Shown piece after piece: positions 125-27,117 of a DNA stretch of 28,328 nt (positions are counted from its first letter, which is position 1; each line of letters starts with the position of its first letter). Location: positions 1-28,328 of the IMG/VR virus record IMGVR_UViG_3300037189_001297; one strand, given 5' to 3'. The notes under the pieces are model-generated. The model saw nothing but the letters and a program-made list of their open reading frames with translations, made no database searches and had not been told where the DNA came from. The stretch is from a virus. A program made the position numbers and the translations under genes.

Positions 125-2542
125 TTAGATTTCACCGTATTTAATAACTTTTTTGCCGCCACCTTTGTCGCTACCACCGCTAGATGGACTACCACCAAAC
201 TCTTCCATCTTATCTGTAAACAACTTACGAACTGCGCTCTTCGGGTTCTTTGTATCGTCCGGTGCGATACCAGCATCTTTATCTTTCTTCTTAGCCGCCT
301 TAATAGCGTCACGCCCTTCACGCGAATCTCTCCACTTATCCATCCGCTCGTCTAGCGATTTCTGCGTTTTTAAGTCTACTTCTTGCTGCCTCAGTGGTAA
401 CCCACCGTATCCGGCGCGTACCTTTTCAGCTGCGGAGGCGTTAGCAGTTTTTTCGATTTGGGCAATGTCAGACTTAGTAGGCTGCTTACCGGGGTTTTTA
501 TCCTGCCACTCTTGCAGCGCGATCCTTCTTTCGGAAGCAAGAATCTGATTACTAAACTCTTGTTGCTTCGACCTTGCTCCAATCTCAGCAGAACCAAGCG
601 CGGCTTCTTTGCTAATTTGCGCAGTCCTGATTGAAGTATCAGCCTGTAACTGCTGGCCTTCTTTCGTCGTAGAGGCAGTAAGGAGGTTTGCATCCCGCTG
701 TAGCTCAAACCCTTGAGCTTTATCTCTTGCGGTCTGTGCACGCTCCACTTCTTGTTTCGAGAACGTAAACTCACCCATCCTTGCAGCACGCTGTGCGTTC
801 GCGTTAGAAATCTCAGCAAGCAACAGCTGGCGCTTAGCTTCTGCATCTGCTTTCTCAGCAGCAGCGATAGACCGACCAAACTTACCGCCAGCACGACCAA
901 ATCTTGTCAGATCAGATGCAACGCCCGGCTCACCCAAAGCTTCCACAGCTTCTAACGCAGCCAGCCCGCGTATCCTGCCCATGCGATCTTCGCCCGATAA
1001 AGCCTCACGTTCTTTTGTAAGTTCTTTTGTAAGCTCAACCGACTTATCCGGGCCTACATACTTCTGCATCTCCGCCAAGCTGCTAGCAGTAATACCTTCT
1101 TTTTCTGCTTGCGATAACGGAGTTAGTACTGCGCCTTCTAGTCTTTGTGCGTAATAGTCTGAACCTTTAGCAGGAGGAGCTTCAACCTTGTCACCCTTTG
1201 CAAAAGCTACGATGCCGCCACGAGCCATCATGCTGCTAGCTTCGGGGTCAAACTGTGACGCCATAGACTGATCGATGGGGAGCGCAGCCAAACCTGCATT
1301 CTCACCTATCATCTGTTCCTTTATGGACTCTTCGGGCACCTCTTGTTCGAGGGCTTGGTTCTGTTGTAGTAGCGCCCTACGACGCTGCTCGGTATCAAGG
1401 ATCGCAAGGGTCGTGGCATCCTCTGCGTTCTCTTGCATAGCTGCAAGCTGCTCGCTACTTAACTGCTTAACCATACTTGCTAGCTCGGCAGGGTCTGCGC
1501 CTGTAGTAACACCACCAGATGCGTAGCCTTTGATAACCCCGCCTTCTTTTTTCATCATCTGCGAGACACCGTACGCCCCTAGACCGATTTGTCCTAGTTG
1601 CGCAGCCATACCCGGCTGGGCTTGATACGTTGATTGCGTGGCTTGTTGCATAGGCGCACCGCGCAAGATATCCGCCATGAACGCAATGTTCTGCTTCTGA
1701 TAGTTACGCTGATTCAGAAAGTCCTGATAGTCTTGCGTGAGTCTTTCTTGCTCTAGAGCTTGACGTTGCCCACCCGCCGCTGCCTGTGCTCGCATCGCCG
1801 CTTCTTGCTGCCCAAACTGTGTCTGACCTAGCTGCCCTAGCGTTGCCCCAGCGGATGTAGCCTGCCCTGCACCACGCAGACCAAGCTCAGCACCCGTTCC
1901 GATATTCTTCATGGCCTGCTCGTAGGCGGATTGGCTACCACGAGCTTGGATGTCACCCATCTGTTGCATCAGATTACGGTTGGCTTCAGCGTTCTCGATA
2001 CCCTGACGATAACCACCCATGCTGCCAGAACCAGCCTGACGGAATGCGCGTTGTGTACCGGCTATGCCAGCCTGCCGCATCGCCTCACGCTTTTCGATGT
2101 CAGTGACGTTCTGCTGAAACGGAGACATAAACCGCGATACAGCACCGGGGTTAGTAACCATCTGCTGGTAATTTTCACCCGCGCCAAGTGCCTGAAGGCC
2201 ACCCAAGCCAGCGAGTTCTGTGCCGGTACCAATCTGTTGAGCGGGGCCGAGGTTTGCCGCTGCCTGAAAAGCTTGCTCCTGCATCGGGTCAAAACCAGCA
2301 ATACGCTGGCCTTTGTATGACTGATACGGCGCTTTCCCTAATGCTTCGGCTTTACCCAGCATACGCTCCATATATGGCTTAGCGTAGTCAGGAATAGTTG
2401 TCTGAGTAACCGTTTGCGAAGTAGCAGCAGGTGGGGGTGGAGGTGGCTTGGGGCTACCGTATAGTTTTATCTTCCTATCCCCAACATGTTTAAACCCGTC
2501 CTCGTCATATTCGTACGGGAAATCAACATAAATTTTACTCAT
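125..2542 (-). CDS. Large Gln/Ala/Gly-rich internal virion (ejection) protein, 805 aa
   Basis: The protein begins with a beta-like segment and a proline run (residues 33-38). Next comes a conserved-looking stretch, IPDYAKPYMERMLGKAEAL (about 50-68), and a Gln/Ala/Gly-rich helical region to about residue 320. A small glycine-rich segment carries MMKKEGGVIKGYASGG (329-344). After another helical region comes MMARGGIVAFAKGD (438-451). The C-terminal part is charged and coiled-coil-like and ends in a Gly/Lys-rich tail. Proteins with this N-terminus and the ARGGIVAFA element occur in uncultured aquatic phages next to nozzle genes, and are probably ejected with DNA; this is inference from context and composition. 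It overlaps the GNAT-like gene upstream by 4 bases (ATGA at 2539-2542). No enzymatic motif is recognised. Confidence 0.7.
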   Translation of the reverse strand: MSKIYVDFPYEYDEDGFKHVGDRKIKLYGSPKPPPPPPAATSQTVTQTTIPDYAKPYMERMLGKAEALGKAPYQSYKGQRIAGFDPMQEQAFQAAANLGPAQQIGTGTELAGLGGLQALGAGENYQQMVTNPGAVSRFMSPFQQNVTDIEKREAMRQAGIAGTQRAFRQAGSGSMGGYRQGIENAEANRNLMQQMGDIQARGSQSAYEQAMKNIGTGAELGLRGAGQATSAGATLGQLGQTQFGQQEAAMRAQAAAGGQRQALEQERLTQDYQDFLNQRNYQKQNIAFMADILRGAPMQQATQSTYQAQPGMAAQLGQIGLGAYGVSQMMKKEGGVIKGYASGGVTTGADPAELASMVKQLSSEQLAAMQENAEDATTLAILDTEQRRRALLQQNQALEQEVPEESIKEQMIGENAGLAALPIDQSMASQFDPEASSMMARGGIVAFAKGDKVEAPPAKGSDYYAQRLEGAVLTPLSQAEKEGITASSLAEMQKYVGPDKSVELTKELTKEREALSGEDRMGRIRGLAALEAVEALGEPGVASDLTRFGRAGGKFGRSIAAAEKADAEAKRQLLLAEISNANAQRAARMGEFTFSKQEVERAQTARDKAQGFELQRDANLLTASTTKEGQQLQADTSIRTAQISKEAALGSAEIGARSKQQEFSNQILASERRIALQEWQDKNPGKQPTKSDIAQIEKTANASAAEKVRAGYGGLPLRQQEVDLKTQKSLDERMDKWRDSREGRDAIKAAKKKDKDAGIAPDDTKNPKSAVRKLFTDKMEEFGGSPSSGGSDKGGGKKVIKYGEI

Positions 2543-2955
2543 AGTATTTTCTCCACTACGACGTACCGGTTAGTAAAACCGAACGCTCGTCGCCATAATC
2601 TCGCCACTGATTCATACGCCTGACCTCGTACTACGGAAGCACCCTTACTTTTTGCCCATACTTCAAAGTGCGCCCATGCACCTCGATCAGCAATAAACTT
2701 ACCACCGATAGCAACTATAAAAGCTTCGCGCATATTGGGGTAGTTGTTAAACTGTACTATTAATGCCCCATGTATCCGGTTGTTCTCATCTACCACTACA
2801 AGCAACTCGTTCCGCCCATCTACCAGATAAACTTTTATTTGGTCTAGAGTGGCTTCCCCTGATGAACGTTCTAGCGCGGGCACTAAGAAGGGTTCGACAT
2901 CACCCCACACCAAATGTAAATACTGTATGTCTACTGGCTGGACAGTTAAGTTCAT
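2539..2955 (-). CDS. GNAT-like protein, possible internal virion protein A analogue
   Basis: This 138-aa protein has the layout of a small GNAT fold. There is an N-terminal helix with a TLDQIKVYLVDGRNELLVVV strand block (about 36-55), a central strand ending before NNYPNMREAFIVAIGG (70-85), and a C-terminal RGQAYESVARLWRRAFGF segment (about 115-132). That last segment resembles the last helix and strand of acetyltransferases. No clear Q/RxxGxG/A acetyl-CoA loop is visible, so activity is doubtful. T7-like phages place a GNAT-like internal core protein (gp13 family) beside other ejection proteins, and the location here between two large ejection-type proteins fits that. It overlaps both neighbours by 4 bases (ATGA). 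It could instead be an active protein acetyltransferase. Confidence 0.6.
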   Translation of the reverse strand: MNLTVQPVDIQYLHLVWGDVEPFLVPALERSSGEATLDQIKVYLVDGRNELLVVVDENNRIHGALIVQFNNYPNMREAFIVAIGGKFIADRGAWAHFEVWAKSKGASVVRGQAYESVARLWRRAFGFTNRYVVVEKIL

Positions 2956-4838
2956 CGCTTAGGTAGATACTTCTCCGCTTTAATTTGCTTGCCTTGTTTT
3001 GAGTTACCTGTGCGTGCCTTACGTACAGCCGCCATCATCTTATACAGCTTCTTAGCACCCGCATCAGTTGAGCCGTTACCTAAGTGTGACACTACGTCAG
3101 CAGGTACAACAAACTCACCATCTGCGAGTCGTGCTGGCTGTTTACCGCTAATCGAAGCTGGGATGTCATCGCTCATACCGTCGCCCGGGCCTTTAAGCAT
3201 ACGACCGCCATCGGAGTAACCGCCGAGGTGCGACAAGCCGCCACGTGCCATTCCTTCTGCGGGGGGTGCGTAACGCGCATCTAGTTCGCCCCGTGCATGT
3301 GCGTAGAAAGGGTTAAGCCCCAGACGCTGTTCAGGAGATTGATACGCAGGGACGTTAACCGGCTGCATCAGTGGCTTGTTAGGCGATACTGGGCTAGGCC
3401 CTGCTGGTAGTGATGCGATGCCGCCAATAGGTTCCGCTGGGGTGGGAGCCGCACCGGTAGAACCATCCGTAGCATCTATACCCGGGCCCCCAGTTTGCAC
3501 AAACGACTGTGAGTTAGGATCGTAGCTGTAAGCATAGTTAGATGGCTTACGGAAGGCCATAACGACTTCTTCCCCGTGAGGGTCTGGTTTCTTTTCCTCT
3601 TCCTTTGCCCTACCAGACTTACCCGTGTTCGTAGAGCCGCCACCATACAACTGCATAATTCCACCCTTAGCCGCTTTCTTATACTCAGGGCCGGGGGCTT
3701 CGTAAGCAGGTAGTTCTGTAAACGTCTCAGTAAAGTAGAGGCGCTCACCCGTATAGTTAGGGTCGTACGTTTGTTGAGCATAAGCTTCTGGATTGTCAGT
3801 GCGCTCAAACTCGTACGGACGGATCATGCCGGGGTGAGTTGGCGGCGGTTTGTCCTCTTCATCATCGTCCTCGCCCAAACCAAGCACCGCAGGGGCAACC
3901 GCAGAGGCCGAAGCAAGCTTGTTCTTAGATAAGAATTCAGCAGCCGCATCTGTGCTATCCGTTACAGTTTCCAGACCCTTACCCATACGGCTGTAGCCTT
4001 CGGAACCCTTAGCCGTAAGGTCGTTAAACCTATCTGTTAGTGGGCGGCTGATGCTTTCTTTTGCGGCAGTACCCGATACATCAGCAGCTGCGGGGTTAGG
4101 CATGTTACCGCCAGAAATTGCCCTTTGTTTCGCAGCATCAAGGTACGAAGTGGAACCCGGAGACCCCGCTTGTAAATTAGCTAGCGTACCGGTATTCGGA
4201 GCAGCAGTCATACCGGGAGCGGTAGTTCCGCTAAGATTTGCGCCGTAGTTACCGACGATCCCTTGTTTAGAAACATCGAGCGCCGCTGTAGTACCTTGCG
4301 CCCCACCCGGCAGAGTTGCTAGGTTAGGAGCCGCAGTAGGAGTAGCCGCTGTAGACAGCGGTGTAGGATTAACCGCTAAGTTAGGCGCAGCAAGCGTAGG
4401 AGTTGCTGTTGTAGTGGCAGTTGTAGTTGCTGTTGGGGCCACTGTTGTCGCAGCCGTTGGAGTAGCTGCATTAGCTGCTGCTGCACCCCCCGCACCCATC
4501 AAGCCTGTAGCAAGGCCGTGACCGCCGAAGGCACCCAAGCCAGCCACCAAACCCTGCTCAAGACTACCCGTAGCCAAGCCGTAGCCACCACCCACCAGAA
4601 GCGCCGCGCTCATACCGCCTGTGAAAGGGGCAAGGGCTGCACCAGCCAGCATAGGCAGGAAACCTTCAAGGCTAAATGCTTCTGGCAGTCCGGTCTCAGG
4701 GTTGGTAGTAATCTGCTGGCCTGTAGCCGCAGCAATTGCGTGTAGCCCCTTAACCTCGTTAGGGGTCATGTGGACTAGGGTAGAGTCGCCGTTGCGCCCG
4801 TAAGAGGCTAGGTGATTGGCTATTTGCGGTAGGCTCAT
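2952..4838 (-). CDS. Large internal virion protein with glycine-zipper segment and conserved C-terminal module, 628 aa
   Basis: The N-terminus has an HMTPNEVKGLHAIAAATG segment (about 23-40). A hydrophobic Gly/Ala-rich stretch (about 58-120) could insert in a membrane, and an Ala/Thr/Pro low-complexity linker (about 120-180) follows. An acidic patch (EDDDEED, 323-329) precedes AAKGGIMQLYGGG (389-401). The C-terminus carries EGMARGGLSHLGG (528-540), then GPGDGMSDDIPASISGKQPA (550-569), then a helical basic end with DVVSHLGNGSTDAGAKKLYK (581-600). This C-terminal module recurs in internal proteins of many aquatic phages (from memory). Membrane-insertable segments and genomic position suggest an ejection protein that helps DNA cross the envelope; this is inference. 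The start is one base after the preceding stop (TAA-T-ATG). Confidence 0.7.
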   Translation of the reverse strand: MSLPQIANHLASYGRNGDSTLVHMTPNEVKGLHAIAAATGQQITTNPETGLPEAFSLEGFLPMLAGAALAPFTGGMSAALLVGGGYGLATGSLEQGLVAGLGAFGGHGLATGLMGAGGAAAANAATPTAATTVAPTATTTATTTATPTLAAPNLAVNPTPLSTAATPTAAPNLATLPGGAQGTTAALDVSKQGIVGNYGANLSGTTAPGMTAAPNTGTLANLQAGSPGSTSYLDAAKQRAISGGNMPNPAAADVSGTAAKESISRPLTDRFNDLTAKGSEGYSRMGKGLETVTDSTDAAAEFLSKNKLASASAVAPAVLGLGEDDDEEDKPPPTHPGMIRPYEFERTDNPEAYAQQTYDPNYTGERLYFTETFTELPAYEAPGPEYKKAAKGGIMQLYGGGSTNTGKSGRAKEEEKKPDPHGEEVVMAFRKPSNYAYSYDPNSQSFVQTGGPGIDATDGSTGAAPTPAEPIGGIASLPAGPSPVSPNKPLMQPVNVPAYQSPEQRLGLNPFYAHARGELDARYAPPAEGMARGGLSHLGGYSDGGRMLKGPGDGMSDDIPASISGKQPARLADGEFVVPADVVSHLGNGSTDAGAKKLYKMMAAVRKARTGNSKQGKQIKAEKYLPKR

Positions 4839-19295: not shown

Positions 19296-19682
19296 TTACC
19301 CCATAACAATGGCTATAGCCACCGCTTCATTATCTGTTTCATACGGAGGTACATTTGCTGCATCTTTGTACACCGCACGTTCAGCAGGGTACGTACAAAA
19401 CACAACTTTGATACCCGCTGAAAAATTAACTTTAGCCCCACCCGACGAACTATCCAATACCGTAGTGCGCTGAAGGAGCGTAGAAGAGGCAAGCGTAGCT
19501 ATACCTACTTCCCACTGATTCAAAGTAAGATCAGAACTATACGCACAGTAGTATGTTGTGTTCGATGTACCCACACCTGCATTAAACGACTGATAGCCAG
19601 CCGTTGCGCCATCTAGGGTAAAGTCAAACAGCCCCGAAGTGGAGCTAGTTTCCTGCACACGATCAGCAACGACGAGAGGCAT
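19296..19682 (-). CDS. Conserved phage structural protein of the 'ADRVxET' type, 128 aa
   Basis: The sequence opens LVVADRVQETSSTSGLFDF and continues GATAGYQSFNAGVGTSNTTY, WEVGIATL, LLQRTTVLDSS, VNFSAG and VVFCTYPAERAV. This ordered motif set is widely shared among uncultured phage proteins encoded near fibres and is likely a virion surface or fibre-base component (from memory of the family). It begins on TAATG, sharing one base with the stop of the preceding gene. A function beyond structural is not known to me. Confidence 0.72.
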   Translation of the reverse strand: MPLVVADRVQETSSTSGLFDFTLDGATAGYQSFNAGVGTSNTTYYCAYSSDLTLNQWEVGIATLASSTLLQRTTVLDSSSGGAKVNFSAGIKVVFCTYPAERAVYKDAANVPPYETDNEAVAIAIVMG

Positions 19683-20140
19683 TATGTGATCCTTATAAGT
19701 GCGGAGGTAGCGTTAGGCGCGGGGAAGATCACATTCATATCTCCTGCGATTGCCTGCTTGTCGCCTCCGAAGTCGAAAATGCACACCGCCGGATTAGTCA
19801 ACGGAGTGTTCGAATTACTCTGCGCCGAAGGAGTCGTGTTGTAGATCATCGCCCCACGTGCAGTCACCGTCACATTGGTGAAGATAAAATCCTGAAAATC
19901 GATAAACGATGTAGAACCAGAAAGAAAAGTACCTAAGCTAGTAAGCGTGGCTCCGCCCGCTGGGTAGTTAGTACCAATCGATTCACCCGAAGTGGTGTAC
20001 GCAGTAGTGGTAGGGCCGATGTTTGCAGCCGAGGTGTACAACGCAAACTTGAATGTATCCCCGCCCGTGACTCGGAAGTCGTGAACGCCAAGAAACAGTT
20101 CTTGTTTGAAACTATTAGCTACGCCCTGAGTGATCGCCAT
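19682..20140 (-). CDS. Beta-rich virion protein, paralogue B, 152 aa
   Basis: The protein begins AITQGVANSFKQELFLGVHD and has the conserved order DTFKFALYTSAA, YTTSGE, YPAGGATLTS, TARGAMIYN, IFDFGGDK and a final SALIRIT. It is clearly related to the 145-aa protein encoded at 20428-20865, with matching blocks along the whole length. An eight-residue insertion near TPSAQSNSNTP is specific to this copy. This family is frequent in phage tail or decoration regions, but the exact site in the virion is unknown. The ribosome binding site AGGAG stands seven bases before ATG, and the stop of the 96-aa gene is directly adjacent. Confidence 0.75.
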   Translation of the reverse strand: MAITQGVANSFKQELFLGVHDFRVTGGDTFKFALYTSAANIGPTTTAYTTSGESIGTNYPAGGATLTSLGTFLSGSTSFIDFQDFIFTNVTVTARGAMIYNTTPSAQSNSNTPLTNPAVCIFDFGGDKQAIAGDMNVIFPAPNATSALIRIT

Positions 20141-20431
20141 TTATATACTCCTGATAACGGAAGCCACCTCGTGGTGCCCCATTTCTTTCAGCTTGTTACT
20201 TACAGTAGTCCGGTCGCTCTGCACCGCAGCCGTAAGGTAGAACTTAATCACACTATGGATATGATTACGGAAAGCATGTGCCTGCGCTTTTAACTCAGGT
20301 GGCGCAGTATCTGCCACCGAAATAATCTTCTCAACCGCAAACTCCGCTAGCTCTTCCGGGTTAAATCCACGATAGTCCACCGTGCGAACAACCGGTGAGC
20401 CTAGTGCTACTTCGGAGTGTTGTCCTATCAT
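20141..20431 (-). CDS. Small helical conserved phage protein, 96 aa
   Basis: The N-terminal third is beta-like (VALGSPVVRTVDYRGFN). The rest is helical: EELAEFAVEKIISVADTAPP (26-45), then KAQAHAFRNHIHSVIKFYLT (48-67), and a C-terminal QSDRTTVSNKLKEMGHHEVA segment. The AQAHAF...H..IKFYL...AV.SDRTT pattern recurs in many uncultured phages. It lies between two paralogous virion proteins, with a 4-base ATGA overlap upstream, so its product is made in step with them. It might be a chaperone or internal helper for these structural proteins; this is inference. Confidence 0.68.
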   Translation of the reverse strand: MIGQHSEVALGSPVVRTVDYRGFNPEELAEFAVEKIISVADTAPPELKAQAHAFRNHIHSVIKFYLTAAVQSDRTTVSNKLKEMGHHEVASVIRSI

Positions 20432-20865
20432 TTAATCCTCAGTATCGCTGTGTTAGCCGCCACAACCGGAAACTGCACGGTAAATGTCGAGTTATTCGAT
20501 GTCTTGTCCGCACCAAAATCTAATACTGCCACTGCCTTGTTACCCTTACTGCTGTTGTAGATCAACGCACCACGGGCTGTAAAACTTGATGCAGGCCATG
20601 ATGTATTCGCAAATGACCAGTATGCCACTCCCGTTGTTGTATCTACAATAGGTGCCTGTGAAATGGTCAGCGTGTTACCACCTGCTGAATAACCCGGCCC
20701 TACTACTTGATCCGCCGTTACATACACCGTAGTGTTTGCGTTCAGGTTAGCCAAACCGGTGTACAAAGCCAACTTAAATACATCAGGCGAAGTGGGGCCG
20801 AAGTTGTGTACACCTTGCGCCAACTCCTGCTTGAAACTCGTACATGCTGTCTGCGAGATCGCCAT
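20428..20865 (-). CDS. Beta-rich virion protein, paralogue A, 145 aa
   Basis: The sequence starts AISQTACTSFKQELAQGVHN and carries DVFKLALYTGLANL, TTVYVT, YSAGGNTLTIS, TARGALIYNSS, VAVLDFGADK and a final AILRIK. All these blocks are also present, in order, in the 152-aa neighbour at 19682-20140. AAAGG is placed six bases before ATG. It lies 9 bases after the adaptor gene. The family is widespread in phage structural regions; whether it decorates the head or belongs to the tail is not known to me. Confidence 0.75.
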   Translation of the reverse strand: MAISQTACTSFKQELAQGVHNFGPTSPDVFKLALYTGLANLNANTTVYVTADQVVGPGYSAGGNTLTISQAPIVDTTTGVAYWSFANTSWPASSFTARGALIYNSSKGNKAVAVLDFGADKTSNNSTFTVQFPVVAANTAILRIK

Positions 20866-21506: not shown

Positions 21507-21764
21507 TTACCCCATAGGGCCACGAGCCATCGTACCCTTAGTAGCTGCGCCGGTACCGCGAATCTTGATACCTGATGTTTTAGTCTCCGGATAGTTACCC
21601 TTGGTAACTACACCAGCACCGATATTCATCTCGTTCATGTACTGCGCACCGGTCTTCTCCGGCACCTGTGGTTTTACTTTTTTACCGTCCATAGTATGTG
21701 GCTCCGCATAAACGGCGGCTTGGCCTACTTCCTTGCCACCCACCTTTTGTGAAAATTTAGCCAT
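21507..21764 (-). CDS. Small basic phage protein with 'RGTGAATKGTMARG' C-terminus, 85 aa
   Basis: The protein begins AKFSQKVGGKEVGQAAVYAE and ends SGIKIRGTGAATKGTMARGP. The C-terminal element recurs at the ends of small proteins of many uncultured phages and is reminiscent in composition (Arg/Lys-Gly-Thr) of the tag on five other proteins in this window, though it is a distinct motif. No transmembrane segment or enzymatic motif is seen. Its ATG shares a base with the stop of the 52-aa gene (TAATG), and it precedes the adaptor gene by 2 bases. Function is unknown; a virion accessory role is inferred from context. Confidence 0.68.
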   Translation of the reverse strand: MAKFSQKVGGKEVGQAAVYAEPHTMDGKKVKPQVPEKTGAQYMNEMNIGAGVVTKGNYPETKTSGIKIRGTGAATKGTMARGPMG

Positions 21765-21922
21765 TAGCGGCTCCGTGCGCCACCGCGCTGATTCATTGCA
21801 CGAGCCATGTTACGGCCCATCTTTTTCATGGCTTCGCCGGTCACACCGCCCTTAGCCATCTTGTGCATCCGCTTTTCGTGGGCCTTAACTTCCGCCTTAG
21901 CCACTTTCTTCATGTTGTCCAT
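21764..21922 (-). CDS. 52-aa basic protein with a KGGV element, easily missed
   Basis: The frame opens at ATG 21922 and codes for 52 residues: MDNMKKVAKAEVKAHEKRMH, then KMAKGGVTGEAMKKMGRNMA, then RAMNQRGGARSR. AGGAG lies five bases upstream of the ATG. The stop overlaps the next start as TAATG. Without this gene there would be a 166-base hole in an otherwise gap-free operon. It is strongly basic, mostly helical and shares the (M/Y)AKGG element with its neighbours. The AEVKAHEKRMH segment resembles KHEEAEM in the 265-aa tagged protein. Function is unknown. Confidence 0.85.
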   Translation of the reverse strand: MDNMKKVAKAEVKAHEKRMHKMAKGGVTGEAMKKMGRNMARAMNQRGGARSR

Positions 21923-22355: not shown

Positions 22356-23096
22356 TTAAATAAACTGCTGACGCGGAACAAACCGATCAGCAGCCTTTTC
22401 CCTATCTTCACCTGCTGCTAGCTCCCATGCCTCATCGTACTGAGCTTTTAACAGCGTAATACGATCAAGTGACACTTCTGGCAGCTTCATACCCAGCATG
22501 TACGCCAGCCCTGCCACCAAGCAGTTCTGGAAGCGGAACGGAATGCCCGGGACGTTTACGCCGTTACCGGCGTCGTATATGCGCTTAAGTCTCCAGTAAT
22601 AGAACACGTAGTACGGGTTACCCTGCGGGCCCTGATCCGGCGCAGGCCACACGTTAATCTGCGGAGAATCAGGAGTTGCGCCCGGTAAATTAGTAGTCTG
22701 CCCTGACTGCCGGTTGATCCATACCTGAATCGGTCGGCCTTGCGTCAGCTTGTTAGGGATAGTTGCGTAGGTAGAGACGCTAATTCGGGTGATGGTCAGA
22801 TCAGTCTGATTAGCCACCTGTCCGGAATTAGTGCGAATAACATGCTCCAATAAATCCACGGTATCAAGAGGTAGATCATAGGTCACCTGTCCTTGTACTA
22901 GGTTGATAGACCCCTGCTCAATAGTCCACAGGTTGATGCCCCGGTTCGCCCACTCCGTAATAAGGAGGTTCAGGCTACGTCGGGCAGTCCGAAAGTCATA
23001 ACCCGAACGAAGCTCACGCCCGCACCGCTCGAACGCCTCTTCGACGATATCGTTCAGCGTCGGGTTAAAGTCTGTCGTTGAGGTTGTGACTGACAT
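22356..23096 (-). CDS. Connector / tail accessory protein (P22 gp4 or T7 gp11-like), 246 aa
   Basis: The N-terminal helical core reads LNDIVEEAFERCGRELRSGY (14-33), DFRTARRSLNLLITEWANRG (34-53), then INLWTIEQGSINLVQGQVTY (54-73). The order of helix, RR.LN.L...W..RG and a following beta strand is typical for the adaptor family that joins portal and tail. The middle is beta-rich with a VWINRQSG...PQINVWPAPDQ block (about 124-155), and the C-terminus is helical (EDREKAADRF). The gene overlaps the preceding stop by one base (TAATG). With a second adaptor-type protein at 20875-21504, either could be the main ring protein; I rate the exact role as uncertain. Confidence 0.68.
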   Translation of the reverse strand: MSVTTSTTDFNPTLNDIVEEAFERCGRELRSGYDFRTARRSLNLLITEWANRGINLWTIEQGSINLVQGQVTYDLPLDTVDLLEHVIRTNSGQVANQTDLTITRISVSTYATIPNKLTQGRPIQVWINRQSGQTTNLPGATPDSPQINVWPAPDQGPQGNPYYVFYYWRLKRIYDAGNGVNVPGIPFRFQNCLVAGLAYMLGMKLPEVSLDRITLLKAQYDEAWELAAGEDREKAADRFVPRQQFI

Positions 23097-23365: not shown

Positions 23366-23598
23366 TATCTATACCTCGCGGTCTTCTGCGCTATGCGTTT
23401 TGGTTGCGCGACGAACTGCTTTCCACTCTTCTTCCCTTCCCGCTTTGCCTTCGTGGTGGCGGCATACTCGGTCGGGCTTAGCGCCTTGATCGCCTTTTCC
23501 GGGAGATACCTCTCTCCGGTTTTCGACGAAGGTTTTCCGCTCTTGGTTCGCCATTTCTGCTCCGTCCACGACTTCAAGCTTTGCTGAGAAGGTTTCAT
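23365..23598 (-). CDS. Small, very basic protein of the 'TKSGKPSxxTGERYLP' family, 77 aa
   Basis: The sequence contains SLKSWTEQKWRTKSGKPSSK (7-26), TGERYLPEKAIKALSPTEYA (27-46) and KSGKQFVAQPKRIAQKTARY (57-76). Lys and Arg dominate, giving a very high predicted pI, and no membrane segment is present. I recall similar short proteins in phages and in some large eukaryotic viruses and algae, without known function. It starts on ATGA at 23595-23598, where it overlaps the end of the tagged 158-aa protein by 4 bases, and it ends on TAATG at the start of the next gene. A nucleic-acid-binding or packaging role is only a guess. Confidence 0.72.
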   Translation of the reverse strand: MKPSQQSLKSWTEQKWRTKSGKPSSKTGERYLPEKAIKALSPTEYAATTKAKREGKKSGKQFVAQPKRIAQKTARYR

Positions 23599-24071
23599 CT
23601 CACCCTACCTCGTGTCTTACCGCGTTGTGCAATTCCGTCTGCACGGGACGACGCTGACTTTACAGCACCGCCTTTGTTGTACAACTTCTGCGGATTCATC
23701 TCGCGGAGCAAACTACCTGCCCCGCCACCGCCGCCACCCCCACGAATCTGCGCCGTAGGGCGTCGCTCAACTTCATCAACGGCAGGGTACTCCGTTACCT
23801 TAACGCCACCAACCATCTTGGTGGTAGCGCCTTTTTCTGCTTCGGCACGTGCGGCTTTACGGTCGTCGTACAACGGATCAGCCTTACGCTCTTTTGCTTC
23901 TTTCGCTGCGGCTTTTTCTGCGTCTGCTTTTTTACGCTCTGCTTCAGCTGCTTTGCGTTCTTTCTCAAGTCTACGCATTAAAAACTGTCGGTTTAACTTA
24001 GAATCAGCTTTATCAAAAGCTTCTTCCGAACGCTGTTGTTCTATCTCGTCAGCTACCGTCAGCTTACCCAC
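23595..24071 (-). CDS. Coiled-coil protein with C-terminal KGG/RADG tag, 158 aa
   Basis: A GTG start at 24071 is preferred over GTGs at 24080 and 24083 because AAAGGTGGTGA stands just before it, with eight bases between GGTGG and GTG. Residues about 10-90 are an Arg/Lys/Ala/Glu-rich coiled coil. A hinge containing MVGGVKVTEYPAVDEVERRP follows, then a run of seven glycines (111-117). The C-terminus is YNKGGAVK (131-138) followed by SSRADGIAQRGKTRGRVR (141-158), nearly identical to the end of the 281-aa protein at 25772-26617. The coiled coil may be the specific part and the tail a common targeting or docking module (inference). Function is unknown. Confidence 0.75.
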   Translation of the reverse strand: MGKLTVADEIEQQRSEEAFDKADSKLNRQFLMRRLEKERKAAEAERKKADAEKAAAKEAKERKADPLYDDRKAARAEAEKGATTKMVGGVKVTEYPAVDEVERRPTAQIRGGGGGGGAGSLLREMNPQKLYNKGGAVKSASSRADGIAQRGKTRGRVR

Positions 24072-24076
24072 GATAC

Positions 24077-24087
24077 TCACCACCTTT
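24077..24087 (-). promoter_or_regulatory. Ribosome binding site deciding the GTG start at 24071
   Basis: The minus strand reads AAAGGTGGTGA, which is close to TAAGGAGGTGA, and the GTG at 24071 follows four bases after its 3' end. The earlier GTGs at 24083 and 24080 fall inside this site. Confidence 0.65.
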
Positions 24088-24110
24088 TTCTTTGTGCTTC
24101 TGCGGGGCTT

Positions 24111-24302
24111 TCACTTCATGGTACCCCGTGTTTTACCCCGCTGGCAGCAGCCATCCGCAGCTTTAACGTAACCACCTTTTTTCATATTAGCCGTATCGCC
24201 AGAAGCGCTATACGTAGATGGTTTGGGTAGCCCGTCTTCCGTTTTGGTAGATTTACCAGAAGGAAGGCCATATTTTTTAATATATTCTGCAATTAACCGC
24301 AT
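24111..24302 (-). CDS. Small tagged protein, 63 aa
   Basis: The preferred start is ATG at 24302 (MRLIAEYIKKYGLPSGK), five bases after AGGA; a GTG at 24314 would directly abut the previous stop. An N-terminal amphipathic helix (1-11) is followed by a polar linker (12-38). Then NMKKGGYVKAADGCCQRGKT (39-58) and RGTMK complete the tag. The Arg of RADG is replaced by Ala and two cysteines take the place of x-A. This is the smallest protein here that carries the complete tag, so the tag makes up more than one third of it. Function is unknown. Confidence 0.72.
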   Translation of the reverse strand: MRLIAEYIKKYGLPSGKSTKTEDGLPKPSTYSASGDTANMKKGGYVKAADGCCQRGKTRGTMK

Positions 24303-24314
24303 AACTATCCTCAC

Positions 24315-24590
24315 TCAGTCACGATACCCGCCACCAGCGGCTTTGTACTTCTTAGCAACCAACTGTGCCTTACGGGCTGACCACTGACCTGCACCGGTGC
24401 CGTGGGTTGCTGCGGCTTTAACCTGACTTACAATCCGCTTGCGCAGCTCAGGTTTGGTGTAGTTACCGGCAGCATTGACCTTCCCACCTTCAGCGTACTG
24501 CGTGAAGTCGGTGTCATCCCGACGGGCTTTCTTCTTCCCGCCGGGCATCTTGGAAGGGTTGATTGCACCCATGCCACGTGAGTAGCGCAT
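24315..24590 (-). CDS. Small basic protein with conserved 'GQWSARKAQLVAKKYK' C-terminus, 91 aa
   Basis: The N-terminus RYSRGMGAINPSKMPGGKKK (2-21) and the following TQYAEGGKV (30-38) are a phage-type module. The C-terminal part, AAGNYTKPELRKRIVSQVKA (40-59) then GAGQWSARKAQLVAKKYKAA (66-85) and GGGYRD, is a compact basic helical domain. I recall it in small proteins of phages, large DNA viruses and some eukaryotic algae, listed as of unknown function (perhaps DUF5872; not certain). It has the KGGxV-like element (EGGKV) but lacks the RADG tag. It begins two bases after the stop of the 265-aa gene, and the 63-aa gene follows at once. Confidence 0.74.
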   Translation of the reverse strand: MRYSRGMGAINPSKMPGGKKKARRDDTDFTQYAEGGKVNAAGNYTKPELRKRIVSQVKAAATHGTGAGQWSARKAQLVAKKYKAAGGGYRD

Positions 24591-24591
24591 A

Positions 24592-25389
24592 TCAGCACTT
24601 ACCGCCGTACTTCATACCTTTAGTAGCACCAGCCATTTTTACCATGGTGCCCTTGGTCTTGCCCTTGGAGGCAATACCGTCACGGCTAGGGGCAGCAGTG
24701 CGAACCGAACCCATCTTCGAAGGGGCAACCATGCCGCCTTTTGCATATTTCTTGGTCTTCATTTCAGCCTCTTCATGTTTAACCATGGATTTAGGTGCGC
24801 CCTTCTTCTTCATAAACGCAATTTCCTTACCTACCATCTTCTTCGACTCAGCGACGCCGCCTTTTTTCATAGGAGCTGCTGCTGGCGCTGGTGTTGATGC
24901 AGGTGCTGCCTTGGCTGCTGGCTTGGCTGCTGGCTTAGCCCCCATGCTGCGGCTTATAGTACCCACACCACGTTTCAGCGCACGGGCCATGCCGCCACCA
25001 AACATTTTCTTAGTCTCTTTCACACTGCCTCCTTTTTTCATCGGTGCGCCTTGGCTAGCCGCTGGTGTTGCTCCGCTTTTCTGTGCTTGCATATCAGCAA
25101 GTGCTTTCGATGCACCAGCATCAGGAGTTGCTGGAGCACCTTGCTGTGCTTTCTGCATAGCAGCAAACTTTGCTGGGTCGAGTGCAGTTAAACCCGACTT
25201 TGGAGCTTGTTGGCCCATAGCACCACCAGCTCCGGGCATCGCCTTGCCACGCAGCATGTCAGACATAAACTGCATTTGCTTTGGGTTAGCTTGCTGACCC
25301 ATAGGCCCCATACGCCCACCCATAGGTGGGCGTGCCGCAGCCATGCGTGAACTCATACCGCCACCAAACATTTTCTTCGTCTTAGCCAT
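24592..25389 (-). CDS. Modular Met/Lys/Ala/Gly-rich protein with repeated motifs and a tag, 265 aa
   Basis: TKKMFGGGM occurs twice (4-12 and 126-134) and MKKGG twice (117-121 and 174-178). The part between is Pro/Ala/Gln-rich and disordered-looking. VGKEIAFMKKKGAPKSMVKH (186-205) is a basic helix familiar from other phage small proteins. YAKGGMV (215-221) precedes a tag variant, SRDGIASKGKTKGTM (235-249), in which one Arg is Lys and the Ala of RADG is missing. Unlike in its neighbours the tag is not terminal: 16 residues follow, ending in YGGKC. The internal repeats suggest growth by duplication of one module. Function is unknown. Confidence 0.74.
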   Translation of the reverse strand: MAKTKKMFGGGMSSRMAAARPPMGGRMGPMGQQANPKQMQFMSDMLRGKAMPGAGGAMGQQAPKSGLTALDPAKFAAMQKAQQGAPATPDAGASKALADMQAQKSGATPAASQGAPMKKGGSVKETKKMFGGGMARALKRGVGTISRSMGAKPAAKPAAKAAPASTPAPAAAPMKKGGVAESKKMVGKEIAFMKKKGAPKSMVKHEEAEMKTKKYAKGGMVAPSKMGSVRTAAPSRDGIASKGKTKGTMVKMAGATKGMKYGGKC

Positions 25390-25391
25390 AA

Positions 25392-25772
25392 TTAAGCCCT
25401 CGTCTTTCCACGAATAGCGCAGCCATCTGCGCGTTTAGAGGCGGATGAAACCTTACCTCCCTTTTTAAACCCCAGCCGGGGAAACTGATTGCCTAACGCA
25501 TCACCACCACCTACATTGATGGGGTCAGATTGCTGCATAGGCATAGTGTTAGTCTGTGCAACGGTAGGGCCGGGAGATGTCTGATACGCGCCGTTGTTAG
25601 CCGTAACATCTCCACCATCAACGCCACCACCCATTGCAAACTTCTTCGTGCGCTTGTCCGCAGCAGAAAAGTCCTTACCCACCTTTTGTGGTACACCGAC
25701 CTTCTTAGCAAACTTAGGGTTGTGCGCAACAGCGTTCATAAAGTCCGACTGTTTTTTAGTTGAGCTTGGCAT
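25392..25772 (-). CDS. Tagged protein with 'KKQSDFMNAVAHNPKFAKKVG' N-terminus, 126 aa
   Basis: Residues 6-39 (KKQSDFMNAVAHNPKFAKKV, then GVPQKVGKDFSAAD) form a conserved helical domain that I recall at the start of many short phage proteins of unknown function. KRTKKFAMGGGVDGG (40-54) resembles the TKKMFGGG element of the adjacent 265-aa protein. A polar Asn/Thr/Pro-rich linker follows. The C-terminus is GFKKGGKV (101-108) and SSASKRADGCAIRGKTRA (109-126), a complete tag. Its ATG overlaps the preceding stop by one base (TGATG). It probably acts with the other tagged proteins, perhaps inside the virion; this is inference. Confidence 0.76.
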   Translation of the reverse strand: MPSSTKKQSDFMNAVAHNPKFAKKVGVPQKVGKDFSAADKRTKKFAMGGGVDGGDVTANNGAYQTSPGPTVAQTNTMPMQQSDPINVGGGDALGNQFPRLGFKKGGKVSSASKRADGCAIRGKTRA

Positions 25773-26617
25773 CAGACTGTCCTTCCACGAGTTTTACCGC
25801 GCTGTGCGATACCGTCTGCACGCTTAGACGCAGACGATTTAACAGCTCCGCCTTTGGCATACGACTTAACCTCACCACCTTTTTTATGCCCGACGCTACC
25901 CCGCTCGAATAAACCTTTATTCCAACCGCCTCTCATAGCCTCTCGGGATTTTCTAAGGCGCTCTTCAGTTAAAAATGTATTTCTAGGGCCAAAACCGGAC
26001 GACTCCTTTTTGACACTCTTATCAGTATTAGCTGCTGCTTTCTTTTCTGCCACTGGGGCCGAATTAGAATTAGAACTTGCGCTATTGCGTTTCTCTTCAG
26101 CTTTCTTAACAAGAGGGTTTTCAGGCTCAAACTTAATACCTTGATCGCTATATAGCTTATCGATCTGCGCGGATGTTGGGGCTTTGTTTGAATGCTTAGT
26201 TTTAGGGTACGCCGCAGCTTGTTTTTCAGGATAAGGCTTAGACGGACGATCCTCGTTAGCTACATAATTAGATTTCTTAGTAGCGTTTGAATCCCTAGTT
26301 GTATTCGTACCTGTTGAAGATTTTTTAACAGGTGCAGTTTTATTGGAAGTAGTTTTATCGGAAGTAGTCGTATCACCAAATTTGTAATTTGGGTCGCCTC
26401 CAACCATATAGTCTTCAGCTTGCCTACGTTCGGCGTCAGTAAACTCTTTCTTCGGCTCTTCCTTAGGCTTAAGGTTTTCGACTACTGCATCCTTAGCGGC
26501 CTTGTCCTTACTTTTAGACCCACGACCCCACATATAGCCAAGGCCACCGATCAAGGCCAAGCTGCCTAAGTCAGAAGATAGGCCTCCGCCACGAAATCGT
26601 TTAGTCTTTTGCTTCAT
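25772..26617 (-). CDS. Tagged Lys/Ser/Asn-rich protein with N-terminal glycine-rich hydrophobic segment, 281 aa
   Basis: The protein begins KQKTKRFRGGGLSSDLGSLA (2-21), of which KTKRFRGGGLSS resembles KTKKMFGGGMSS of the 265-aa protein. A short hydrophobic segment (about 15-31) may touch a membrane. Residues about 35-215 are a polar, low-complexity Lys/Ser/Thr/Asn/Pro region. A conserved-looking helical part FLTEERLRKSREAMRGGWNK (about 215-234) follows. Two KGG elements, HKKGGEVK (244-251) and YAKGGAVK (253-260), precede RADGIAQRGKTRGR (266-279). GAGG upstream of ATG gives a weak ribosome binding site. It shares one base with the next gene (TGATG). Function is unknown; architecture suggests a linker between two anchors. 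Confidence 0.74.
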   Translation of the reverse strand: MKQKTKRFRGGGLSSDLGSLALIGGLGYMWGRGSKSKDKAAKDAVVENLKPKEEPKKEFTDAERRQAEDYMVGGDPNYKFGDTTTSDKTTSNKTAPVKKSSTGTNTTRDSNATKKSNYVANEDRPSKPYPEKQAAAYPKTKHSNKAPTSAQIDKLYSDQGIKFEPENPLVKKAEEKRNSASSNSNSAPVAEKKAAANTDKSVKKESSGFGPRNTFLTEERLRKSREAMRGGWNKGLFERGSVGHKKGGEVKSYAKGGAVKSSASKRADGIAQRGKTRGRTV

Positions 26618-26862: not shown

Positions 26863-27117
26863 TTAACACTTCCATGCACGTAATGATTTATTGATTCTGC
26901 TATTCGGGTCGTTCGCGGTCTTAGACGAAGTCAGCTTCTTTTTCATGCCAGACATACGGGCACAAAATGACTTCTTCCTAGCCCCGCCTTCTGGTTGCGG
27001 TGCTTTTAGCCCGGGCTTCCCCGGATTAGCTGCGTTGTACGAAGCCCGACCTTTGGCGTTCAAGCCGCCCTTCTCAGACTTACCTTCCTTGCGCTGCCAT
27101 GCTGGAGTCTTAGCCAT
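26863..27117 (-). CDS. DUF6321-like small basic protein, 84 aa
   Basis: The whole sequence matches my memory of the DUF6321 family: AWQRKEGKSEKGGLNAKGRA (6-25), SYNAANPGKPGLKAPQPEGG (26-45), KKSFCARMSGMKKKLTSSKT (48-67) and ANDPNSRINKSLRAWKC (68-84). Members are found in phages, especially marine ones, and have no known function. The protein is strongly basic and Gly/Lys-rich, with two cysteines (52 and the terminal 84). It has no membrane segment. It starts two bases after the 266-aa structural gene and abuts the membrane protein that follows. High conservation suggests a role in the virion or in nucleic-acid handling; this is inference. Confidence 0.82.
   Translation of the reverse strand: MAKTPAWQRKEGKSEKGGLNAKGRASYNAANPGKPGLKAPQPEGGARKKSFCARMSGMKKKLTSSKTANDPNSRINKSLRAWKC

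Follow-up and report, generated by a model that had tools for sequence, protein, structure and literature searches.

A shared C-terminal tag on small proteins encoded upstream of the head-tail adaptor in a clade of short-tailed phages: a candidate signal for encapsidation

The internal proteins of phage T4 are highly diverse small proteins united by one conserved signal (PMC3012670). This signal, the capsid targeting sequence (CTS), is an N-terminal propeptide of 10-20 residues that is removed by the prohead protease (PMC5694885). In Family 1 encapsulins, short, flexible and usually C-terminal targeting peptides on different cargos direct loading into a shell of the HK97 fold (PMC10960027). 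Here, we examined a peptide tail shared by different proteins of a virus, IMG/VR record IMGVR_UViG_3300037189_001297, analysed over its whole 28,328 bases (the window), with its genes on the minus strand. Five of six adjacent genes at 23595-26617 (minus strand) encode this tail, hereafter the tag. The tag is a portable module that marks one clade of short-tailed phages of roughly 50-67 kb with adaptors of the SU10/Pam1 type. Its likeness to the T4 internal proteins, in which variable proteins carry one signal, and to the C-terminal encapsulin peptides suggested that it may be a protein-level address signal for encapsidation and ejection, a reading to which we assign a probability of about 0.5. 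The literature searched for the tag peptide or a shared tail held nothing relevant.

The tagged gene cluster and its cargos

The full form of the tag is (Y/F/M)(K/A)KGGxV-S-S-A-S-x-R-A-D-G-(I/C)-A-Q-R-G-K-T-R-G followed by three residues. Tagged proteins fell into class I (307 proteins), with the tag at the very C-terminus, and class II (132 proteins), with the tag farther from the end; the final residue was Cys in 101/132 proteins of class II and 77/307 of class I. The cluster in the window comprises the following genes, with lengths in amino acids (aa):

25772-26617, minus strand: 281-aa tagged protein; class I tag at the C-terminus, core 25787-25816, tail KRADGIAQRGKTRGRTV
25392-25772, minus strand: 126-aa tagged protein with a three-helix module at its N-terminus (also present in phiKZ165.1 and CBB_322), a predicted disordered middle and a class I tag; core 25398-25427, tail KRADGCAIRGKTRA, ending RGKTRA
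24592-25389, minus strand: 265-aa protein; class II tag, variant TAAPSRDGIASKGKTKGTMVKMAGATKGMKYGGKC, core 24652-24681
24315-24590, minus strand: 91-aa basic protein inside the cluster, untagged (phrog_17747)
24111-24314, minus strand: 67-aa open reading frame (ORF), 63 aa from the first ATG; class I tag, core 24126-24155, tail KAADGCCQRGKTRGTMK
23595-24083, minus strand: 162-aa ORF, 158 aa from a later GTG; class I tag, core 23610-23639, tail SRADGIAQRGKTRGRVR

The initial annotation of the window had placed the tail on the 281-, 126-, 265- (as a variant), 63- and 158-aa proteins, and all five copies were present on the minus strand. The C-terminal position it gave for four of them was borne out, with 1-4 residues between the core and the stop. 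In the 265-aa protein, which is rich in Met/Lys/Gly repeats, the tail is an internal variant near the protein end, TAAPSRDGIASKGKTKGTMVKM, lying 19 residues before a terminal Cys, and those 19 residues end in GGKC. A tblastn search with the tail of the 281-aa protein gave matches at exactly five places (E-values 1.7e-19 to 4.4e-4). Identity to the other four tails ranged from 48% to 83%; the earlier description of the tails as nearly identical holds for the core and only loosely for the remainder.

Across the clade, the tagged proteins formed approximately 140 cargo clusters, 93 of them singletons. When 100 different cargos were aligned, GG, DG and GKT were the sole invariant columns, and the tail alone was conserved. 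Proteins of the family DUF6321 occurred both with the tag (30 cases) and without it (91 cases; 123 distinct cases in the clade), which indicated that the tag was gained or lost on the same protein. In the 30 tagged cases it followed directly behind the WxC end. These observations upheld the earlier proposal of a portable module rather than whole-gene duplication. Searches of the 100 cargos against Pfam, PHROGs and PADLOC recognised almost nothing except DUF6321. Anti-defence or enzymatic cargo was considered and rejected, as PADLOC gave no hit and DUF6321 was the sole credible Pfam hit.

Distribution and selection of the tag

A degenerate DNA pattern for the tag core was found in at least 120 stretches in IMG/VR, and 119 of the 120 listed had core markers of the same clade; a His/Arg variant of the pattern was found in at least 120 further stretches, with those markers in 118 of the 120 listed. 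The 182 loci retrieved, some of which overlap, contained 451 distinct tagged proteins, with 1-6 per locus. A regular expression for the tag matched 479 times in these loci and not once in the same 2.75 Mb reversed, so the tail is not a product of chance. Loci were also chosen solely for their adaptor gene; of the 38 that extended 4 kb or more upstream, 37 were tagged, carrying 1-5 tags each. Across the adaptor-selected loci, all 155 tags lay on the strand of the adaptor, and 153 were found upstream of it within approximately 3.5 kb. Exact matches in 12 contigs 50-67 kb long were located just upstream of the adaptor in 28/28 cases, with none elsewhere. The initial annotation had named, as the outcome that would speak against it, a random low-complexity match with no enrichment in virion gene blocks; the tag was instead found in the virion gene block throughout the clade.

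Among GTDB genomes there were merely two matches to the tag pattern, isolated and judged to be chance, and hence no evidence of prophages. A tblastn search of cultured phage records with the tag gave no match, although this search was insensitive and missed the divergent copy in Planktothrix phage Pag-Yong1 (UMO75986.1), which was found by reading the ORFs of that phage. Among the cultured phages, one tagged protein was found, encoded between the minor capsid and adaptor genes, in a genome of a single length deposited under three names. The records OL906435.1, OQ594354.1 and PP438419.1, with the host names Planktothrix, Synechococcus and Planktothricoides, all have 65,014 bases and gave 100% identical matches, and they are therefore probably one genome deposited three times.

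The ratio of nonsynonymous to synonymous substitution rates (dN/dS) was 0.118 in the tag vs 0.274 in the cargo. Synonymous-codon agreement among tag copies was 0.441 within a genome vs 0.393 between genomes, and agreement of Gly codons was 0.437 in the same column vs 0.429 across columns; such near-equal values spoke against low-complexity sequence or a recent duplication. A recent DNA repeat or product of gene conversion, without function, would be in keeping with the abundant Lys/Gly-rich repeats of the tagged proteins. However, the synonymous sites of the tag are saturated while its residues are kept, H-type copies within one genome shared codons at 0.36 vs 0.42 for unrelated copies, and the reversed sequence held no matches, making this origin highly improbable; gene conversion and recent spread were rejected on the codon comparison. 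Because the synonymous codons are scrambled and the residues kept, the tag is under old, protein-level selection and is not a spreading repeat.

Gene neighbourhood and candidate roles

Four further genes of the window bear on the role of the tag:

22356-23096, minus strand: head-tail adaptor, 246 aa (SU10_adaptor, PF24175), directly downstream of the tagged cluster
26863-27117, minus strand: DUF6321 protein, untagged in the window
2952-4838, minus strand: 628-aa protein, whose relatives share the motif GGx(2-5)[YFM]AxGG with tagged proteins (17/36)
125-2542, minus strand: 805-aa protein matching phrog_4287 (DNA ejection protein), in which KKEGGVIKGYASGGV resembles the linker preceding the tags

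The adaptor shares 42% identity with the protein named "Pam1 adaptor" in phage DSL-LC04 and is also related to the adaptors of HTVC023P, CRP-901/902 and Pag-Yong1. The gene order of DSL-LC04 matches that of the window, with an FYGG-type protein, DUF6321, a membrane protein, small basic genes and the adaptor. The adaptor identity and this gene order placed the tagged genes within the head/neck block of a short-tailed phage.

The first 45 residues of the 126-aa protein matched phrog_16759 in a profile search (E-value 3.1e-19) and were 69% identical to phiKZ165.1. This module is also found as a small protein of phiKZ-like jumbo phages, and it opens the 847-aa virion protein CBB_322 of Pectobacterium phage CBB; many class II proteins likewise begin with it. 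Mass spectrometry of purified CBB virions detected CBB_322 through 30 peptides, at a coverage of 43.57% (PMC5259590). Of the tagged proteins, 20% had the linker motif GGx(2-5)[YFM]AxGG, as did 47% of the relatives of the 628-aa protein; in shuffled sequences the values were about 0.1% and 1%, respectively. The motif was also present in the 805-aa protein and was absent from several hundred capsid, portal, scaffold, adaptor and nozzle proteins. The 628-aa protein would be an ejection protein, judging by its place and type.

The cluster immediately precedes the adaptor in almost all genomes, a position that could also be explained if the tag attached minor neck or tail components to the portal, the adaptor or another outer part of the virion, rather than marking packaged cargo. 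We consider this improbable, as the cargos are mostly unrecognised and hypervariable, unlike neck parts, and the linker motif is common to ejection-type proteins and not to the adaptor or nozzle.

A mechanism of encapsidation and ejection would begin in the late block between capsid and adaptor, with the expression of small proteins bearing a flexible, basic C-terminal peptide of the form (Y/F/M)KKGGxV-SASxRADG(I/C)AQRGKTRG-KMV. The peptide would bind one conserved site presented during head assembly, for which the scaffold, the capsid interior and the portal core are candidates. As a result, a diverse, fast-changing and mostly disordered set of proteins could be packaged and probably ejected with the DNA. 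We infer the virion location, the binding partner and the ejection from several features that favour this mechanism: the single-strand, clade-wide position between capsid-side genes and the adaptor; an unchanging tail on cargo that varies, and its gain or loss on one and the same protein; the CBB_322-type N-terminal module; the linker motif common to the 628-aa family and ejection-type proteins; the within-genome agreement at core position 7 described below; the predicted disorder of the tag, as in encapsulin peptides; and the precedent of T4.

At core position 7, all class I copies of a genome tended to carry the same residue type (K, or H/L/R), with non-K residues in 34/42 in H genomes vs 2/101 in K genomes (Fisher 7e-23, a raw value that ignores phylogeny). 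The tag on DUF6321 proteins agreed with the other tags of its genome as K or non-K, with one exception. This concordance fits one partner per phage, and an old spread within the lineage would give the same pattern.

Several points weigh against encapsidation and ejection. After phylogenetic correction (about 7 independent pairs), the co-variation at position 7 was not significant. The CBB_322 module is untagged in CBB, and the link to virions runs through shared modules only. We found no experiment, mass spectrometry or structure on any tagged protein. Relatives of approximately 65 aa (L103, L119, L122, L123) of a 52-aa protein of the window (21764-21922, minus strand; ending GRNMARAMNQR) have the tag core near the N-terminus. 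Furthermore, given the strongly basic character of the tag, DNA binding alone could account for it.

A nucleic-acid-binding tail was the strongest rival: a Lys/Arg/Gly peptide would neutralise or condense packaged DNA, or coat cellular DNA or RNA, with cargos varying spacing and charge and with no single protein partner. The tag region had a median net charge of +7 (class I) or +8 (class II). The cargos of class II are basic as well, at a median of +11, and the tagged proteins of the window carry +9 to +39. However, charge alone would not call for D, G, A and T residues that are nearly invariant and fixed in place, nor for a constant spacing between tag and stop, and class I cargos are only weakly basic (median +3). 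We regard this alternative as possible, if somewhat unlikely.

The predicted structure bore on a further candidate. In the AlphaFold model of the 126-aa protein, the three-helix N-terminus was confident and the rest, including the tag, was disordered, with a predicted local distance difference test (pLDDT) score of about 54. Comparisons with the PDB gave no meaningful sequence or fold match, and those with BFVD matched solely uncharacterised phage proteins, via the N-terminal module. The letters of the core fit GxxxxGK[ST] in most copies, as in a Walker A (P-loop) nucleotide-binding site. However, whole sublineages have H, R or L instead of K, Pag-Yong1 has R there, and the region is predicted to be disordered, with neither strand nor helix, and ends a few residues later. 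The probability of a nucleotide-binding site is thus negligible, and a P-loop NTPase or Walker A ATPase was rejected on the K replacement and the predicted disorder. Processing by a diglycine protease was considered for the recurring GG, and no evidence for it was found. The interpretation given in the initial annotation was supported in part: the module stood, and no protease or cleavage evidence was found for the tag.

Should the tag prove to be an encapsidation signal, a single regular expression would suffice to list internal and possibly injected proteins across a large uncultured clade, proteins beyond the reach of homology annotation, and the C-terminal peptide could serve to load proteins into phage heads. 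The T4 pattern of variable internal proteins sharing one signal would then have arisen independently in small short-tailed phages. A broader proposal, which we put forward tentatively and hold to be doubtful, is a general C-terminal cargo-loading system of tailed phages, in which an exchangeable, clade-wide tag loads more than 100 unrelated small protein families into the head and delivers them to the host, co-evolving with one capsid or scaffold receptor. Even if it merely binds DNA, the tag is found across the clade on hundreds of proteins, as a module missed by the family libraries searched.

Other features were observed in the same gene blocks. A second type of Gly/Arg tail occurs on small proteins of the block, represented by RGTGAATKGTMARGPMG at window 21507-21764 (minus strand) and, in relatives without the main tag, by RGxGAA(I/V)RGxxFxGV(K/F) in HTVC023P gp32 and gp51 (L127) and RGMGCATRGGG in DSL-LC04 (L126:11771-11998). 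DUF6321 also occurs as a C-terminal module in several longer PHROG families. One sublineage (G007-G012; records of L012, L029, L033, L034, L039 and L059) has a longer adaptor, with an open frame of 308-321 aa vs approximately 246, and its adaptor match splits near query residue 136-143. In the tail region of the window, two similar genes at 19682-20140 (MAITQGVANSFKQEL..) and 20428-20865 (MAISQTACTSFKQEL..), both on the minus strand, lie either side of a 96-aa gene and are likely a tandem duplication.

Comparison with known systems

The module of phrog_16759 includes the N-terminal 45 aa of the 126-aa protein, but its other members phiKZ165.1 and CBB_322 come from jumbo phages and are matched over the N-terminal module alone, CBB_322 being without the tag. 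In Pelagibacter phage HTVC023P, an adaptor-bearing relative, gp32 and gp51 are unrelated proteins with a Gly/Arg C-terminal tail; their motif, RGxGAA(I/V)RGxxFxGV(K/F), is distinct, and any homology with the present tag is conjectural.

As with the T4 CTS, one signal is present on diverse small proteins of one phage, with several genes per genome. However, the present tag is C-terminal in class I, where the T4 signal is N-terminal, and is rich in Gly, Lys and Arg; we know of no cleavage of the tag and of no sequence relation to the T4 CTS. Like an encapsulin targeting peptide, the tag is short, flexible (disorder was predicted in the one protein modelled) and C-terminal on different cargos. 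The encapsulin cargos are enzymes in a cellular compartment, whereas the cargos of the present tag are mostly unrecognised phage proteins and its binding to a shell is putative. The tag is a member of neither the T4 CTS nor the encapsulin family, and differs from the T4 signal in position and sequence.

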